Source: Acidihalobacter yilgarnensis
Lineage (GTDB): Bacteria; Pseudomonadota; Gammaproteobacteria; DSM-5130; Acidihalobacteraceae
Assembly: GCF_001753245.1 (NCBI RefSeq)
Contig: NZ_CP017415.1
Location: forward strand, 2,260,501-2,324,500
Direction: 5' to 3'
DNA length: 64,000 nucleotides
Below, piece by piece: positions 17,291-26,133 of this stretch. Made by a program: the position numbers and the translations under genes. The notes beneath the pieces are model-generated. The model was not told where the DNA came from. It did not search any database and worked only from the letters and a program-made list of their open reading frames with translations. How positions within the stretch are numbered: position 1 is the stretch's first letter; the number at the start of each line of letters is the position of its first letter.

Positions 17291-17678
17291 GCGCTACTCC
17301 CGCTAACCCGACGACCAGCGCCGGATAGTATTTTGTGTATCGGTCGGAAATCCGTTCGCGCCGGCCGATGGGCGCGATCCGATGAGCGATCGACTCATCC
17401 AAGGTTGCGATTATGCTGCCTGCGGACCCTCTCAATGGGGCGTTACCACGGCGCGTGACGAGCGTGTGCGGAGCCATGATAGCCAAGCCCCGAGGGGCTG
17501 CCAAGACTTGTCAATGCCATCCCGCTGGGGTTTCGTTCATCGCCCTGACACGTTACATTGCCACCCAAACCCTTCCGGCCGGCCTGAATGGCCGCACCCA
17601 ACGACGCGGACGACCGCGATGAACCACCCGCGCCCCTGGCGAGCGGGATCGGTACTGGCGCCCCGAGGAACAAGACGC
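17291..17678. other. Intergenic region between divergent leuA and ABC transporter operon
   Basis: About 390 bases with no supportable gene. It should hold the promoters of leuA (minus) and of the peptide transporter operon (plus). No leader peptide with a run of leucine codons and no terminator-like attenuator was seen. An in-frame ATG at 17619 could extend the binding-protein gene, but it lacks a good ribosome site. Confidence 0.4.
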
Positions 17679-19265
17679 ATGAACGACGACACCCCACGCA
17701 ACCGCAAGCACGCGACGTCACGCCGCTCAGCACCCGACCACGAACGCCGTGACTTCATCCGCGCCTCGGGTGTACTCGGATTCGGACTGGCCACAAGTGC
17801 CCTGGGGTTGCGCCCAGGCACAGCCGAAGCTGCGGAGCCCGGTCGGCGCGGTGGCACGCTACGCGTCGCCATCCCGGCCGCCAAGTCCATCGATCCACTC
17901 AAGATCGACAGCGCCGGCGCAATCGCGATCGTGCAGCAGGTCGGGGAATATCTCGTCTGGGCCGAGCCTGACCTCAGCCTACGCCCGGTACTCGCAACCG
18001 CCTGGCACACCCCCGACGGCGGCAAGACCTGGATCTTCGAGCTGCGCAAGGGCGTCAAGTTCCACGATGGCCGCGAAATGACGGCCGACGACGTGGTCGC
18101 CACCTTCGAACGTCTGGTGAATCCGAAGATGGCCTCGGTAGCGCGCGCGCAGATTCCCTTCCTCAAACCCGGTGACACCACCCGTGTTGACCACCACACG
18201 GTCAAGTTCACGCTCGACCGAGCGGTGGGTGAATTCCCCTATTACACCCAGATCTACAACGCGGTGATCCTGCCACACGACTACGCCGGCGATTTCGCGA
18301 AAAATCCGGTGGGCACCGGCCCGTTCCGGATGATCGACTACAAGCCGCAGCAAAGCGCGCGCTTCGAGCGCAACCCGGATTACTGGGATGCTGGCAAACC
18401 CTATCTCGATGCTGTGGAAATGGGGCTCTATGGTTCGCCGCAGCCGATGATCCTCGCGCTGCAGGGAGGCGATACCGACATGATGCTTGGCATTTCCTCC
18501 ATCGACGCCAAGCCGCTGCTCGCAAAGCCCGACATCCGCATCGCCCGCGCCCACTCATCGGCCACCCGTCTGCTGGCGATGCGTGTCGACCGCAAACCCT
18601 TCAACGACCGACGCGTGCGCCAGGCGGTGGCCCTGTGCCTCAATCGCGAGGCGATGCTCAAGGTCCTACTCGGCGGCGCCGGCGAGCTCGGCAACGACCA
18701 CCCCATCGCCCCGATCTTCGGCGACCACATTCGGCTCAAGCAACGGCATCAGGACGTCGGCCGCGCGCGTCGGCTCCTGGCTGAAGCAGGCTACCCTCGC
18801 GGATTCGAAATCGACCTTTACACGGGCGATTATCTGGAGCTGCCGCAATACGCCATCCTTGCCCAGCAAATGTTGGCACCCGCCGGCATCCGCGTAAAGC
18901 TGCGCGTCGAACCCCTCAACACCTATTACGACCACTGGACCCAGGTCGATTTCGGCCTGACCGACTGGACCGGTCGCACCACACCCTCGCAAATCCTCTC
19001 GGCCGCATTCGGCGGACACTCCGAATGGAATGCGGCACACTGGAAACACCCCGGCTTCGACGATATCGTCGCCAAGCTGGAGGCCAGCACCGACCCCCAT
19101 CAGCGCGACCGCCTCGCCAATCAGGCCGCCACCATGTTGCACGATGAAACGCCCGCCGCCATCGCCTACTTCATCGACCTGCTACGGCCGATGCGACGCA
19201 AGGTCAAGGGCGTCGAGGCCAATATGTCTCAATACCTCGATCTCACCCAGGCTTGGCTGAGCTGA
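17679..19265 (+). CDS. Peptide/nickel-type ABC transporter substrate-binding protein (SBP family 5), Tat-exported
   Basis: This is the periplasmic binding protein of an oligopeptide-type importer, 528 residues. The twin-arginine motif RRDFI (residues 23-27) and hydrophobic stretch to residue 45 form a Tat signal peptide. Mature SBP_bac_5 features are RGGTLRVAIPAAKSIDPLK, WIFELRKGVKFHDGREMTADDV, NPVGTGPFRM and RQAVALCLNREAM. The ATG at 17679 has AGGAA 8 bases upstream. It leads a four-gene operon with two permeases and a double ATPase. The substrate (peptide, opine, nickel chelate or other) cannot be told from sequence. Confidence 0.93.
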   Translation: MNDDTPRNRKHATSRRSAPDHERRDFIRASGVLGFGLATSALGLRPGTAEAAEPGRRGGTLRVAIPAAKSIDPLKIDSAGAIAIVQQVGEYLVWAEPDLSLRPVLATAWHTPDGGKTWIFELRKGVKFHDGREMTADDVVATFERLVNPKMASVARAQIPFLKPGDTTRVDHHTVKFTLDRAVGEFPYYTQIYNAVILPHDYAGDFAKNPVGTGPFRMIDYKPQQSARFERNPDYWDAGKPYLDAVEMGLYGSPQPMILALQGGDTDMMLGISSIDAKPLLAKPDIRIARAHSSATRLLAMRVDRKPFNDRRVRQAVALCLNREAMLKVLLGGAGELGNDHPIAPIFGDHIRLKQRHQDVGRARRLLAEAGYPRGFEIDLYTGDYLELPQYAILAQQMLAPAGIRVKLRVEPLNTYYDHWTQVDFGLTDWTGRTTPSQILSAAFGGHSEWNAAHWKHPGFDDIVAKLEASTDPHQRDRLANQAATMLHDETPAAIAYFIDLLRPMRRKVKGVEANMSQYLDLTQAWLS

Positions 19266-19278
19266 CCGACGCGCCAGG

Positions 19279-20238
19279 GTGAGTGCCTATATCGTTCGCA
19301 GACTGCTGCTGCTAGGCGTGACGCTATCAGTGGCTTCGGCCCTGATCTTCGCGCTCACCAGCGTGCTGCCGGGTAATGTCGGACGCATCATGCTCGGGCC
19401 CTTCGCCTCGCAGCATGCCGTCGACGTACTGAACCTGCAGCTGGGCGCGAACTTGCCGCTGTGGGACCGCTATCTTCATTGGCTCGGCGGCATCGCCCGT
19501 GGCGACTGGGGACACTCACTGGTTTATGGCGCACCGGTACTACCTCTGGTGCTGGATCGCCTGGGACATTCCCTCGTCCTCGCCACCGCCGGTCTCGCGT
19601 TATTGCTGCCGAGCGCAATCGCCAGCGGCGTCTACGCTGCCCTGCACGAAGGCGGCGCCTTCGACCGCGTGGTTTCCGTCGTTAGCCTGTCCTTCGGCGC
19701 CATCCCGGAATTCGTCACCGGCGTGCTGCTCATTGTGATCTTCGGCATCGCCCTGCACTGGCTCCCAATCCAGGCCCTGCCCCCGAGCGGTGCCGATCTG
19801 CTGAGTTGGTTACGACACCTCCTCATGCCTGCCATCGCGCTGGCACTAACGCTGTTCTCCTATGTATTCCGTATGGCCCGCGGCGGTATGATCGAGGCCT
19901 TGGCCGCCGATTACACCCGTACCGCCGTGCTCAAGGGGCTGCCCCCGCGCCAGGTACTCTGGCGACACGTGTTGCGCAATGCCCTGCTACCAACAATCAC
20001 CGTTGCCGGCGCACAAATCGGCTGGATGGTCGGCGGTCTGGTCGTAGTCGAAACCCTATTCCGGTATCCCGGTATCGGTAGCCTCACCTACAGTGCCGCC
20101 ACCAATAAAGATGTCCCGCTGCTGGTCGGTTGCAGCCTGATGATCACGCTGGTCTTCGCACTGGCGAATTTCCTGGCCGATCTGCTCCATGCCCTGCTCG
20201 ACCCACGCGTACGTCATGCCATCATCTATCCTGCCTGA
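19279..20238 (+). CDS. ABC transporter permease, DppB type
   Basis: This inner-membrane subunit of the peptide-type importer has 319 residues and about six helices. It starts SAYIVRRLLLLGVTLSVASA (DppB/OppB-like N-terminus) and contains the cytoplasmic coupling loop DYTRTAVLKGLPPRQVLWRHV and the ending ETLFRYPGIGSLTYSA. The start is a GTG with a poor ribosome site, 13 bases after the binding-protein gene, so translational coupling is likely. It overlaps the next permease by about 23 bases. Confidence 0.93.
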   Translation: MSAYIVRRLLLLGVTLSVASALIFALTSVLPGNVGRIMLGPFASQHAVDVLNLQLGANLPLWDRYLHWLGGIARGDWGHSLVYGAPVLPLVLDRLGHSLVLATAGLALLLPSAIASGVYAALHEGGAFDRVVSVVSLSFGAIPEFVTGVLLIVIFGIALHWLPIQALPPSGADLLSWLRHLLMPAIALALTLFSYVFRMARGGMIEALAADYTRTAVLKGLPPRQVLWRHVLRNALLPTITVAGAQIGWMVGGLVVVETLFRYPGIGSLTYSAATNKDVPLLVGCSLMITLVFALANFLADLLHALLDPRVRHAIIYPA

Positions 20239-21040
20239 CCGCCATCGTGCGCCGCTCACCTTGCTGCTGGGCCTGTTCTTACTCGGTATGTGGGTCATCA
20301 CTGCTTTGGCCGCGCACTGGATTGCCCCCTATTCGCCGACCGCCGTCGATTTCAGCGCCCTCTCGCAACCCCCCTCCTGGCAACACTGGTTCGGAACGGA
20401 TCGCTTTGGGCGCGACGTGTTCAGCCGAGTGATTTACGGTGGCGCCCAGGTTCTGCAGGTGGCGCCGGCAGCCACGCTGCTCGGATTGATCCTCGGCACC
20501 CTGATCGGCCTGTTCGCGGCCTACTACGGGCGTTGGGTCGATGAGGCCATCATGCGCGTGATCGACGCCGTCATGGCCTTACCGCTGATCGTGCTCGCAA
20601 TGCTCGCGCTGACGCTGCTCGGGCCCTCGACGCTCAACGTGATCCTGGTGATCGGGCTCGTGTTCTCGCCATTGGTGGCGCGCACGGTCAGGGCACGCGC
20701 ATTGATCGAAACCCGCCGGGAATACCTCCAGGCCGCGCAGATGCGTGGTGAAGGTACCGCCTACCAACTGTTACGCGAAATCCTGCCCAACATCAGCGGC
20801 CCACTGGTCGTCGAGGGCACGATTCGTCTCGGTTACGCCGTCTTCACCTCGGCCACACTCGGTTTTCTCGGCCTCGGTGCGCAACCGCCCAATCCCGATT
20901 GGGGTTTGATGGTGAGCCAGAACCAGACCCAGCTCACCACCGCCCCCTGGACCGTGCTCTTCCCGGTTCTGGCCATCGTGCTGGTGGTAGTCGGCATTGG
21001 CCTGGTCGCCGACGGCCTGCGCACGCGCGTGGCGGCATGA
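20216..21040 (+). CDS. ABC transporter permease, DppC type
   Basis: This is the second inner-membrane subunit of the peptide-type importer. It has 274 residues from the ATG at 20216. Family marks are FGTDRFGRDVFSRVIYGG near the N-terminus, the coupling loop RREYLQAAQMRGEGTAYQLLREILPN and the ending TLGFLGLGAQPPNPDWGLMV. The chosen start lies inside the 3' end of the upstream permease; an in-frame ATG at 20189 would lengthen the overlap. Its stop overlaps the ATPase start (ATGA). Confidence 0.92.
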   Translation: MPSSILPDRHRAPLTLLLGLFLLGMWVITALAAHWIAPYSPTAVDFSALSQPPSWQHWFGTDRFGRDVFSRVIYGGAQVLQVAPAATLLGLILGTLIGLFAAYYGRWVDEAIMRVIDAVMALPLIVLAMLALTLLGPSTLNVILVIGLVFSPLVARTVRARALIETRREYLQAAQMRGEGTAYQLLREILPNISGPLVVEGTIRLGYAVFTSATLGFLGLGAQPPNPDWGLMVSQNQTQLTTAPWTVLFPVLAIVLVVVGIGLVADGLRTRVAA

Positions 21041-23058
21041 ACGAAGCCCTGTTGCGCATCGATACCCTCGGGGTCAGCTATCGCCGCGACGGCCGCTGGT
21101 TGCGCGCCATCCGCGAGCTGTCCCTCGATCTCATGCCCGGCGAGGCCTATGGTCTAGTCGGAGAATCGGGTTGCGGCAAGAGTACGCTGGCCATGAGCAT
21201 CCTGCGCTATCTGCCGCGCAACGCGCGTCAGGACTCGGGACGTATCGTATTCGCCGGTCACGCGCTCGACGCGCTTGGCGAAACCGAGTTGCGACGCCTG
21301 CGCGGCGCCCGCATCGGCATGGTCTATCAGCATCCCGGCACCGCCCTCAACCCGTCGATCCCGGTCGGCCGGCAAATCGCTGAACTCTATGCACTGCACG
21401 CAGGTCTCAACCGCGCACAAGCCGATACCGCCGCGGTCGATATGCTCGCTGGCGTCCACATTGCCCGTCCAGACACTGTCGCGCGCCTTTATCCCTACCA
21501 ATTGTCTGGCGGTATGCAACAGCGCGTCGTAATCGCCATGGCGCTGGCCACCGACCCCGAACTCCTAATCCTGGACGAACCCACCACGGCACTGGACGCC
21601 ACCGTGCAGGCGGGCATTCTAGAGTTGTTCGAGGAACTGCGCCGCGATTATCGCGCCGCGCTGCTGTTCATCAGCCACAACCTCGGTGTGGTTCGCCAAG
21701 TCTGCGACCGCGTGGGCGTGATGTATGCCGGCCGGCTGGTCGAGGAGGGGCCCTCCGCCGAGGTTTTTTCGCAACCGCGACATCCCTACACCGCCGCACT
21801 GCTTGCCTGTCTGCCCGATACGGGCGCACGTCGCGACCTGCGCCCGCTACAACCAATCCCCGGCACCGTACCGGCCGCGCATTTGGCCGAGGCCGGCTGC
21901 CTGTTCGCGCCACGCTGCACGCTGGTCCAGGCGGCGTGCGAGGCCAATATTCCGCCACCCGAGGTGCGCGCAGGACACCTCAGCCGCTGCCTGTTTTCCG
22001 AGGCGGTATTGCCCCCTTCGATTGACGTCCCCATGGCACCGCCCTTGCAGAGTATCGCCGATCCGCTGACCTCACCTCCCCGTCAGCCCCTGATCGAGAT
22101 CGAGGGCCTGCACGTCCGTCACGGAGCAGCGCAGATACTCGATGCGATCGACCTGCAAATCGTCCCCGGCGAGACCTTCGGGCTGGTGGGCGAGTCCGGC
22201 AGCGGCAAAACCACCCTCGCCCACGCCATCGCCGGCCTGGTGTCCCCTGCCAGCGGCACGATTCGACTGGACGGCAAGCCGCTAGCGGCTCGGATCACGC
22301 GACGCCGTGATGAACAACGACGCGATATCCAAATGGTCTTCCAATCGCCGGACACCACACTCAATCCGCGTCGACGCGTGGGCGCAGCCCTGCGGCGCGC
22401 GATCCGCAAGCTCTCGCGCCTCAACATCCCCCTTCGCGAGCGACTGGCCAGACTGCTGCGCGAAGTCGCCTTGCAGCCAGAGCAGGCACGCGCATTGCCG
22501 GATCAGCTCTCCGGCGGACAGCGCCAACGCGTCGCCATCGCGCGCGCCTTCGCCGGCGAGCCCCGTTTGGTCATTCTGGACGAGCCGACATCGGCCCTCG
22601 ATGTTTCGGTTCAAGCCGCGGTCCTGCGCCTGCTGGTCGAGCTTCAGGCGCGCCACGCCGTCGCCTATCTATTCATTTCTCACGATCTAGCCGTAGTGCG
22701 CTATCTCGCCGACCGAATTGGCGTGCTGTATCGAGGCGTACTCGTCGAAACAGGTCCGACCGAAGCACTCTTCAGCGGTCCCAATCACCCCTACACCCGT
22801 GCTCTGATCGCCGCCATGCCGCGCCTGGATGGCAAGGCAAATCGGCCGCCTGATGCTGGCATAACGGAGGCGCCTCTGGTCGACGGACCTACGGCCTGCG
22901 TCTATGCCGGGCACTGCGATCGGGCCATGACCCAGTGCCAGACAGAACCGCCACCCTGGCAGGAAGGCGCGGCCCGTCATCGGATACGCTGCTGGCTACC
23001 GGCCGAGCGTCTGGGCACGCCAGACGCCGGTGATACGCGCCCGACCGATGTCGCGTAA
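21037..23058 (+). CDS. Fused double ATPase of the peptide-type ABC importer (DppD-DppF fusion)
   Basis: The 673-residue protein contains two complete nucleotide-binding domains. The first has Walker A GESGCGKST (42-50), signature LSGGMQQR and LLILDEPTTALDA. The second has Walker A GESGSGKTT (about 385), signature LSGGQRQR and LVILDEPTSALDV. Each half ends with the Cys-containing oligopeptide-transporter tail (GCLFAPRCTLVQAACE; TACVYAGHCDRAMTQC), which in relatives can hold an Fe-S cluster. A single chain therefore replaces the usual DppD and DppF pair. It ends 6 bases from the convergent pssA. Confidence 0.94.
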   Translation: MNEALLRIDTLGVSYRRDGRWLRAIRELSLDLMPGEAYGLVGESGCGKSTLAMSILRYLPRNARQDSGRIVFAGHALDALGETELRRLRGARIGMVYQHPGTALNPSIPVGRQIAELYALHAGLNRAQADTAAVDMLAGVHIARPDTVARLYPYQLSGGMQQRVVIAMALATDPELLILDEPTTALDATVQAGILELFEELRRDYRAALLFISHNLGVVRQVCDRVGVMYAGRLVEEGPSAEVFSQPRHPYTAALLACLPDTGARRDLRPLQPIPGTVPAAHLAEAGCLFAPRCTLVQAACEANIPPPEVRAGHLSRCLFSEAVLPPSIDVPMAPPLQSIADPLTSPPRQPLIEIEGLHVRHGAAQILDAIDLQIVPGETFGLVGESGSGKTTLAHAIAGLVSPASGTIRLDGKPLAARITRRRDEQRRDIQMVFQSPDTTLNPRRRVGAALRRAIRKLSRLNIPLRERLARLLREVALQPEQARALPDQLSGGQRQRVAIARAFAGEPRLVILDEPTSALDVSVQAAVLRLLVELQARHAVAYLFISHDLAVVRYLADRIGVLYRGVLVETGPTEALFSGPNHPYTRALIAAMPRLDGKANRPPDAGITEAPLVDGPTACVYAGHCDRAMTQCQTEPPPWQEGAARHRIRCWLPAERLGTPDAGDTRPTDVA

Positions 23059-23064
23059 GGCAAT

Positions 23065-23850
23065 CTATTCCGGCTGCGCCCGCCGCTGGCGGAACTTGCG
23101 CCAGCGGCGCCACGCGAAGTGTAGCGGGCCGGACAAGGTATAGAGTACGAAGAGAGCGTACAGCACAATCGAAGGCCACAATGCGATCAGCACGAACAGG
23201 CTGAGCACGGCAATCACGCTGACGAAGGGTACCCGCTTGCGCAGGTCGATGTCCTTGAAGCTGTAATAGGAAAAACCCGACACCATCAGACCGCCGGCGA
23301 GCAGAGTGATCACCAGAGCGGGAATCATCATCGTGCGTCCAGAGATTGAAAACTGCTCCCACATCCACACCGTTCCCATCATCACCGCGGCGGCGGAAGG
23401 GCTGGGCAGCCCCTGGAAAAAACGCTTGTCTAGATTTCCCACCTGGGTGTTGAAGCGCGCGAGTCGCAAAGCTGCGGAGGCAGTATAGATAAAGGCTGCC
23501 AACCAGCCCGCCTTGGCCCAGAACCAGCCCAGGTCGTGCAAATGGACCAGGGCCCATTGATACATGACCAGCGCGGGTGCGAGCCCGAAGGACACCATGT
23601 CCGAAAGACTGTCGTATTCGGCACCGAAGGCACTTTGCGTATTGGTCATGCGGGCCACGCGACCATCCAGACCGTCGAGTACCATGGCGATGAACACCGC
23701 GATGGCTGCGGCGGTGTAGCGGCCATTCATGGCCGCGACGATGGCATAGAATCCACCGAACATCGCGCCCGTGGTCAGCAAATTGGGCAGCAGGTATACC
23801 CCCCGCGGATGTTTGGTACCGGTACCCGGCTCGCGAATCTCGTTGCCCAT
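23065..23850 (-). CDS. pssA: CDP-diacylglycerol-serine O-phosphatidyltransferase
   Basis: It makes phosphatidylserine from CDP-diacylglycerol and serine in the inner membrane. The CDP-alcohol phosphotransferase motif DG-x2-AR-x8-G-x3-D-x3-D is complete, from DGLDGRVAR to EYDSLSD. Several hydrophobic helices follow, and the protein ends with a basic tail. This is the Bacillus-like integral-membrane type rather than the E. coli PssA type. The ATG at 23850 has AGGAG 4 bases upstream; the in-frame ATG at 23862 has none. It is next to a decarboxylase-like gene, the expected partner for phosphatidylethanolamine synthesis. Confidence 0.93.
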   Translation of the reverse strand: MGNEIREPGTGTKHPRGVYLLPNLLTTGAMFGGFYAIVAAMNGRYTAAAIAVFIAMVLDGLDGRVARMTNTQSAFGAEYDSLSDMVSFGLAPALVMYQWALVHLHDLGWFWAKAGWLAAFIYTASAALRLARFNTQVGNLDKRFFQGLPSPSAAAVMMGTVWMWEQFSISGRTMMIPALVITLLAGGLMVSGFSYYSFKDIDLRKRVPFVSVIAVLSLFVLIALWPSIVLYALFVLYTLSGPLHFAWRRWRKFRQRRAQPE

Positions 23851-23890
23851 GCGTCTCCTCATGATTTGCAGCCCTTACGGTTTACTCGTT

Positions 23891-24493
23891 TCACGGGCGC
23901 AGTAACTTGCCGATCACCTGCCCCGCACGCACCCGTGCGCCGGGGGTCACCTCAATGCGTGAGGCCTCCGGCAGGTACAGATCCAGGACCCTGCCGAAAC
24001 CGGCAAAACCGCAACGACTGCCCTGACCGACACGCTCCCCCGCGCGTACTTGGCATCGTAGATAGCCCGGCAGTCGCGAGCGATGAATGGCCACGACGAT
24101 ATCATCGAGTTCATCGGTCTGCACCCAAAGCGCGGCCTGACGGCCATTGCCCGCGGGCGTATCACGCCAAACCTTGAGCAGCTTGCCCTCGATCGGCGCA
24201 TACAAACCGTACGGACCGATCGCGTCCTGCATCACACGCACGCAGCGCGCTGCACGCTCGCGGTAGGGGTCACGACAGGCATCGACGGAGAGGATGCGAC
24301 CGTCCACCGGACTGAGCACCGCCAGCGGCGAGGCCGGCGTGGGCCGCGGTAGTTCGCGGAACACGAAGCCCAGCCCCAACGTCACCACCCACAAGGGTAA
24401 GGCGGCAAGTCCCCCTTCGGTGGCCGTCAGCGCCAAGGCCAACGCCAACATGCCGAAAACCGGCACGCGTCCCTCACGGACGATGGGCATCAT
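23891..24493 (-). CDS. Phosphatidylserine decarboxylase-like protein lacking catalytic residues
   Basis: The 200-residue protein aligns with short (non-mitochondrial type) Psd proteins: N-terminal hydrophobic segment (12-45), LSPVDGRI (60-67), a middle beta region and the C-terminal RVLDLYLPEASRIEV. Active family members carry MxxxDVHxxRxP and self-cleave at a Ser in FGSRVD to make the pyruvoyl group. Here the first site reads AIGPYGLYAP (91-100), without the Asp or His, and the second reads GFGRVLD with Arg168 where Ser is expected. The place in the operon (ilvC-this-pssA) is the normal psd place. It is probably inactive as a decarboxylase. Confidence 0.75.
   Translation of the reverse strand: MMPIVREGRVPVFGMLALALALTATEGGLAALPLWVVTLGLGFVFRELPRPTPASPLAVLSPVDGRILSVDACRDPYRERAARCVRVMQDAIGPYGLYAPIEGKLLKVWRDTPAGNGRQAALWVQTDELDDIVVAIHRSRLPGYLRCQVRAGERVGQGSRCGFAGFGRVLDLYLPEASRIEVTPGARVRAGQVIGKLLRP

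Positions 24494-24577: not shown

Positions 24578-26133
<1,556 letters not shown>

Follow-up and report, generated by a model that had tools for sequence, protein, structure and literature searches.

What keeps a gene in the place of a phosphatidylserine decarboxylase (Psd) when its product no longer carries the residues that catalyse the reaction? The question is raised by an open reading frame in the window (i.e., the whole stretch of 64,000 nucleotides analysed here), in which the minus strand reads, in order, ilvN-ilvC-pseudo-Psd-pssA (Table 1). The frame of the pseudo-Psd gene is open throughout, from the ATG at 24493 to the stop that ends at 23891. The first-pass annotation had placed a psd-like ORF between ilvC and pssA, which the positions of the ORFs confirm, and the coordinates, the motifs (LSPVDGRI and RVLDLYLPE) and the residue number of Arg168 that it gave were correct on re-check. 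The upstream neighbour is a gene that we take to be ilvC from its sequence, while the product of pssA matches PF01066 and passes TIGR00473 (109.7 bits, with a cut-off of 107). A scan for promoters and terminators gave counts equal to those of shuffled sequences, with nothing between ilvC and pssA. On the plus strand, a run of ORFs (17382-23058) that by eye resembles a peptide ABC transporter, with a binding protein, two permeases and fused ATPases, stops 6 nt short of the pssA stop.

Table 1. Genes, protein segments and active-site positions at the pseudo-Psd locus (window coordinates).
Feature	Position	Strand	Detail
pseudo-Psd, non-catalytic homologue of short bacterial Psd	23891..24493	-	200 aa
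pssA, CDP-alcohol phosphatidyltransferase type	23065..23862	-	next downstream, 28 nt past the pseudo-Psd stop
ilvC (presumed)	24578..25645	-	next upstream of pseudo-Psd; homologues at 24/24 first loci
Helices 6-26 and 28-44 (codons 6-44), hydrophobic hairpin, probable membrane anchor	24362..24478	-	AlphaFold2
Asp64 of SPVDG, sole triad-type residue retained (E. coli D90)	24302..24304	-	alignment
Gly93 replacing the DxH Asp (E. coli D142)	24215..24217	-	alignment
Tyr95 replacing the catalytic His (E. coli H144)	24209..24211	-	alignment
Acidic motif TDELDD, codons 126-131	24101..24118	-	D127, E128 in 102/102 pseudo rows; D130 95%
GERVGQG, codons 152-158, pseudo-clade motif	24020..24040	-	R154 99%, G156 98%, Q157 92%
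Arg168 replacing the pyruvoyl-forming Ser (E. coli S254)	23990..23992	-	alignment

Active site, family models and fold

The triad of E. coli Psd is given as D90/D142-H144-S254 in PMC7952604. Motif alignment maps D142, H144 and S254 to Gly93, Tyr95 and Arg168 of the window protein, positions at which its catalytic relatives in the homologue alignment carry Asp or Asn, His and Ser, respectively, which bears out the earlier reading that the Asp and His of DxH are missing and that the Ser has become Arg. The comparison with close relatives that had been proposed as a check shows the same catalytic residues lost in two genomes of the same genus (81% and 77% identical to the window protein), which carry the same Gly, Tyr and Arg; a sequencing error or a frameshift hiding the Ser is thereby excluded for practical purposes. 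That the protein should neither cleave itself nor decarboxylate, as had been predicted, is strongly supported as far as residues can tell, since Asp, His and Ser are gone together with other segments shared by the catalytic proteins.

These segments were identified by comparing 102 pseudo rows with 22 catalytic rows (G179, G099 and G121 omitted), which flagged 29 columns as lost in the former. Found throughout the catalytic rows and lost from the pseudo rows are the stretch around the His, the loop that follows it, the QxAGLxARR strand and IRFGSRVD, and the short-helix loop of catalytic Psd (128-131 in the model of the catalytic relative L149) is absent as well. The whole substrate site has therefore been dismantled, beyond the triad. 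An active Psd is rejected on the triad residues and the lost segments together, and the binding of phosphatidylserine, one of the new roles that the first-pass annotation had suggested, is weakened, since the canonical segments of the substrate site have been lost as well. Other columns are near-invariant or strongly kept in the pseudo rows: besides the two motifs of Table 1, they include E102 (99%) and L57 (93% of the 102 rows), and the rates of D127, E128, E102, R154, G156, D130, L57 and Q157 are all lower in the catalytic rows. Three catalytic proteins near the pseudo clade (G109, G215 and G299) have TDEKDD or TDEGDD with His and Ser kept, so the job of the acidic loop may predate the loss of catalysis.

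Homology to the decarboxylases is recognised by Pfam PF02666, which the window protein matches with 36.1 bits (cut-off, 22), as do all 121 rows of alignment A2. All the NCBIfam decarboxylase models listed remain far under their cut-offs, the best being NF003680 (97.7 vs 262 bits), and TIGR00164 gives 52.5 bits for a cut-off of 230. What the protein has of a PF02666 member is the homology and the Asp of SPxDG, but not the pyruvoyl Ser, the Asp and His of DxH or the other catalytic segments, and an annotation based on Pfam would call the pseudo-Psds decarboxylases, which they cannot be.

The AlphaFold2 model of the window protein (mean pLDDT 94.2, pTM 0.89) consists of two helices and a beta domain. 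The helical hairpin has a mean hydropathy of 1.93 in 101 of the 104 pseudo rows, and it is hydrophobic in the catalytic group too. With VIA-align, the top match of the model was IIA-Glc of the PTS (3our_B, Z 14.3, rmsd 2.7, 125 residues), and E. coli Psd (7cnz_C) gave Z 9.4 (rmsd 2.6, 120 residues); for the model of the control L149 (pLDDT 89.5) the values were Z 14.9 with IIA-Glc and 13.0 with E. coli Psd, whose chains are split by cleavage, which lowered the structural scores. These scores show, at the level of predicted models, that the core fold has been kept and that the Psd-specific part has moved away. A special likeness to IIA-Glc is ruled out, given that the catalytic control matches it equally. 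When solved structures were searched by sequence with A2, only Psd appeared, at E 0.007 and weaker, followed by IIA-Glc at E of at least 0.05.

Among known systems, the short bacterial Psd (PRK05305 group; NF003680, TIGR00164) shares with pseudo-Psd the gene place, the two-helix anchor, the beta fold and the residues RDPxR, SPxDG and GxxxxxGxRxG, and is its direct ancestor by the rooted tree described below, but pseudo-Psd has neither the Asp, His and Ser nor the shared catalytic segments, and falls short of the NCBIfam cut-offs. The beta domain of E. coli Psd (TIGR00163; PDB 7cnz, 6l06) is homologous to that of pseudo-Psd, which lacks equivalents of D142, H144 and S254; it is the E. coli type, encoded elsewhere, that is the active Psd of the genome. 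IIA-Glc (PDB 3our, 1f3g), a regulatory protein with other enzymes as binding partners, shares the broad fold, although pseudo-Psd has no phospho-His and IIA-Glc no membrane anchor. The broad fold is also common to EnvC and other degenerate LytM domains (PDB 4bh5, 8c0j), which have lost their catalytic residues and activate periplasmic amidases; 4bh5_A matches with Z 8.4, equally so for the catalytic L149 model.

Origin, distribution and displacement

The window protein was matched in 24 genomes among 76 relatives, and a profile of 21 non-catalytic rows found matches in 130 of the 370 genomes of the class (each at least 90% complete). Three of these (G054, G369 and G301) were dropped because the match was another Psd, leaving 127 readable locus genes, 23 of which keep both His and Ser. 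The remaining 104, the pseudo-Psds, never have the two jointly (0/104): their His column holds Tyr in 62, Phe in 24, His in three and other residues in 15, and their Ser column Gly in 26, Ala in 25, Arg in 25, Ser in 15 and other residues in 13, while the Asp of SPxDG is present in 92. Carriers of pseudo-Psd come from 73 genera in 50 families; the catalytic-locus genomes come from 12 families, with none in common. In another collection, a scan for the pattern GERxGQGxRC returned 237 relatives, 80 of which were kept, from Ectothiorhodospira, Thiohalobacter, Thiogranum, Thiorhodospira and many uncultured Gammaproteobacteria.

In an unrooted tree (fragments G121 and G179 omitted, G002 added) the 104 pseudo rows form one side of a single branch (SH-aLRT 91). 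In a tree rooted with 10 of 30 Psd rows from outside the class, which also omits the long or odd rows G099, G091 and G201 besides G121 and G179, the pseudo rows, 101 in number, are monophyletic (SH-aLRT 99) and nested inside the catalytic rows. The phylogeny shows that pseudo-Psd descends from the short catalytic Psd of the ilvC-psd-pssA place and that catalysis, as read from the aligned residues, was lost once. The first branch of the clade, G355 (L153), keeps FGSRVD and has Ser and Tyr instead of Asp and His, which suggests that the His was lost before the Ser; this protein is a possible intermediate between the catalytic and the dead state, and in its genome an E. coli-type Psd is present as well. 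Across three genomes of the genus, dN/dS is 0.157-0.185 for pseudo-Psd and 0.039-0.085 for pssA: pseudo-Psd is under amino-acid constraint, weaker than that on its neighbour. A recent pseudogene is ruled out by the rooted clade, the dN/dS values and the spread over 50 families.

If this gene no longer makes phosphatidylethanolamine (PE), which one does? A catalytic Psd elsewhere, whose existence had been left as something to look for, was searched for in the host genome (one contig, 3.57 Mb, completeness 99.99), and two were found. One, 287 aa long, is of the E. coli type, retains DYH and MGST and scores 246.2 bits with TIGR00163 (cut-off, 111.75); the other, the third Psd of the genome, is a short one of 228 aa in which WDMH and LGST are intact. 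With both present, the route to PE is covered. The third Psd lies at L002:1321-2007 (C1:901952-902434 in its own genome) beside an ORF that by eye is glycosyltransferase-like, and this short type was found by PF02666 in G002, G003 and G004, not in G001. A second psd and a new role had been offered as alternatives; with the former found and the dead copy retained in 50 families, both seem true together.

Across the class, the E. coli-type Psd occurs in 324 of the 370 genomes. Scored by eye from the match table for the 127 genomes, it is present in none of the 23 catalytic-locus genomes and in 99 of the 104 pseudo genomes, a contrast that does not represent many independent events, displacement being a single event on the tree; the Fisher value of this contrast takes no account of kinship and is not to be taken as a probability. 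We conclude that pseudo-Psd was made redundant by the E. coli-type Psd. In five carriers (G185, G206, G227, G291 and G091, drafts of 93-98 completeness) PF02666 found no other Psd; G206 and G291, both among them, belong to one genus and have an identical pseudo-Psd. Some of these cases may be assembly gaps, or such carriers may have another PE route.

The link to PssA and competing explanations

The window gene shows what is expected of a pseudoenzyme under selection, i.e., lost catalytic residues, a constrained sequence and wide and long retention, and it is almost certainly a pseudoenzyme, judging by these sequence comparisons. Retention of the dead copy in 50 families probably reflects a non-enzymatic role in the making of membrane lipids. 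Gene order makes the regulation of PssA, which the first-pass annotation had also suggested, the best guess for that role: 96 of the 104 pseudo loci have, all on one strand, ilvC before the gene and pssA after it, while pssA lies downstream at 100 of them (contig ends or fragments account for some of the exceptions), and the gap to pssA has a median of 26.5 nt, with quartiles at -8 and 61. The catalytic ancestor already had the same gene order, which counts against a PssA link drawn from it, as does the presence of three conserved loop residues in some catalytic relatives. Nor was any carrier-specific PssA column found in a crude test of 99 pseudo, 17 catalytic-locus and 30 non-carrier rows (80% vs 45%). 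In L174 (G195) and L178 (G080) pseudo-Psd follows ilvC and pssA is elsewhere, which makes these two loci natural test cases for the link. All of 30 chosen genomes without pseudo-Psd carry PssA and the E. coli-type Psd, so pseudo-Psd is not generally needed, and in 15 of them ilvC comes directly before pssA (14 with 62-200 nt between the matches, one with 576), so it can be absent cleanly. In the locus with the 576-nt gap, L309, no ORF of at least 60 aa matched the A1 profile.

These observations give a sequence of events. Catalysis, as read from the residues, was lost once, in a lineage carrying an E. coli-type Psd encoded elsewhere, and the dead copy was kept in place, with its hairpin and fold, as no fewer than 50 families radiated; meanwhile, the old substrate site was dismantled and a new set of residues (E102, D127-E128-x-D130 and R154-x-G-Q) became fixed. 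Pseudo-Psd may now be a non-catalytic, membrane-anchored partner co-made with PssA, and the acidic and GERxGQG loops its putative working surface. Most likely it would tune PssA or hold it in a complex, the output of phosphatidylserine thereby being matched to the Psd encoded elsewhere; the hand-over of phosphatidylserine is its other possible target. Taken as a whole, the explanation of an ancient conserved pseudoenzyme turned non-catalytic membrane partner of PssA is, in our judgement, an even call. The PssA-partner role by itself is tentative, with a chance somewhat below even, and that the family is, clade-wide, a dedicated membrane subunit of PssA setting the output of phosphatidylserine is more doubtful still.

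Dead relatives of pyruvoyl decarboxylases with a regulatory job are already known, a precedent for the PssA-partner explanation as well: the AdoMetDC prozyme of trypanosomes, a dead paralogue of such an enzyme kept for a non-catalytic job, activates its active partner (eLife 20198, PMC5201418). Could pseudo-Psd, likewise, bind the E. coli-type Psd, or ferry phosphatidylserine to it from PssA? The co-occurrence of the two in 99 of 104 genomes, and the lack of the E. coli type from all 23 catalytic-locus genomes, speak for it. However, the prozyme has another fold and pathway and its own close paralogue as partner, whereas the paralogue of pseudo-Psd comes from another Psd branch, so that no inherited dimer surface is expected, and its partner is only putative. 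Moreover, in a crude comparison of 30 carriers with 30 non-carriers the E. coli-type Psd shows no column that tells them apart (80% vs 45%), no other Psd turned up in five carriers, and the gene adjoins pssA, not psd, which leaves such a partnership rather unlikely. Quite unlikely, too, is a new enzyme or ligand-binding protein in which E102, D127, E128, D130 and R154 make up a new site in the old fold: the strictness of these columns, with D127 and E128 identical in all 102 pseudo rows and E102 and R154 at 99%, is what such a site predicts, but parts of the motif are already present in the catalytic G109, G215 and G299 and may be structural.

The remaining explanations give the protein little to do, or its old activity. 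The short or overlapping junction with pssA (overlaps fall in the lower quartile) would suit an ORF kept as a spacer, for translational coupling of pssA or for mRNA structure, the protein itself mattering little, which we regard as improbable given the selection on amino acids (dN/dS 0.16-0.19, invariant residues) and the 15 of 30 genomes in which pssA directly follows ilvC. A functionless, decaying relic would account for a constraint weaker than that on pssA and for the drift of the Ser column, but hardly for an open frame that has stayed in its place across 50 families (104 genomes) or for columns stricter in the pseudo rows than in catalytic relatives, and is very improbable. That the protein still decarboxylates, or that a sequencing error masks its Ser, is scarcely credible: partial cleavage during purification was still seen in His-144 and Asp mutants of E. 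coli Psd, but mutants of His-144 yielded no PE (PMC7952604), and in the window protein the nucleophile is absent from its site, with the same-genus genomes in agreement.

Significance of the pseudo-Psd family

No description of a catalytically dead Psd between ilvC and pssA turned up in the literature searched, which left most subscription papers and preprints outside. The pseudo-Psd family offers a dated, single-origin case of an enzyme of an essential pathway that died after gene displacement and was kept in 50 families, and natural controls are at hand in the catalytic relatives, the dead carriers and the lineages without the gene. To our knowledge, the ways in which bacteria balance phosphatidylserine synthase and Psd are, on the whole, little understood, and a conserved non-enzymatic protein co-made with PssA would be a direct handle on that balance. 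If the proposed role of pseudo-Psd as a partner of PssA is true, it would represent an undescribed control point of phosphatidylethanolamine synthesis in much of the Gammaproteobacteria.
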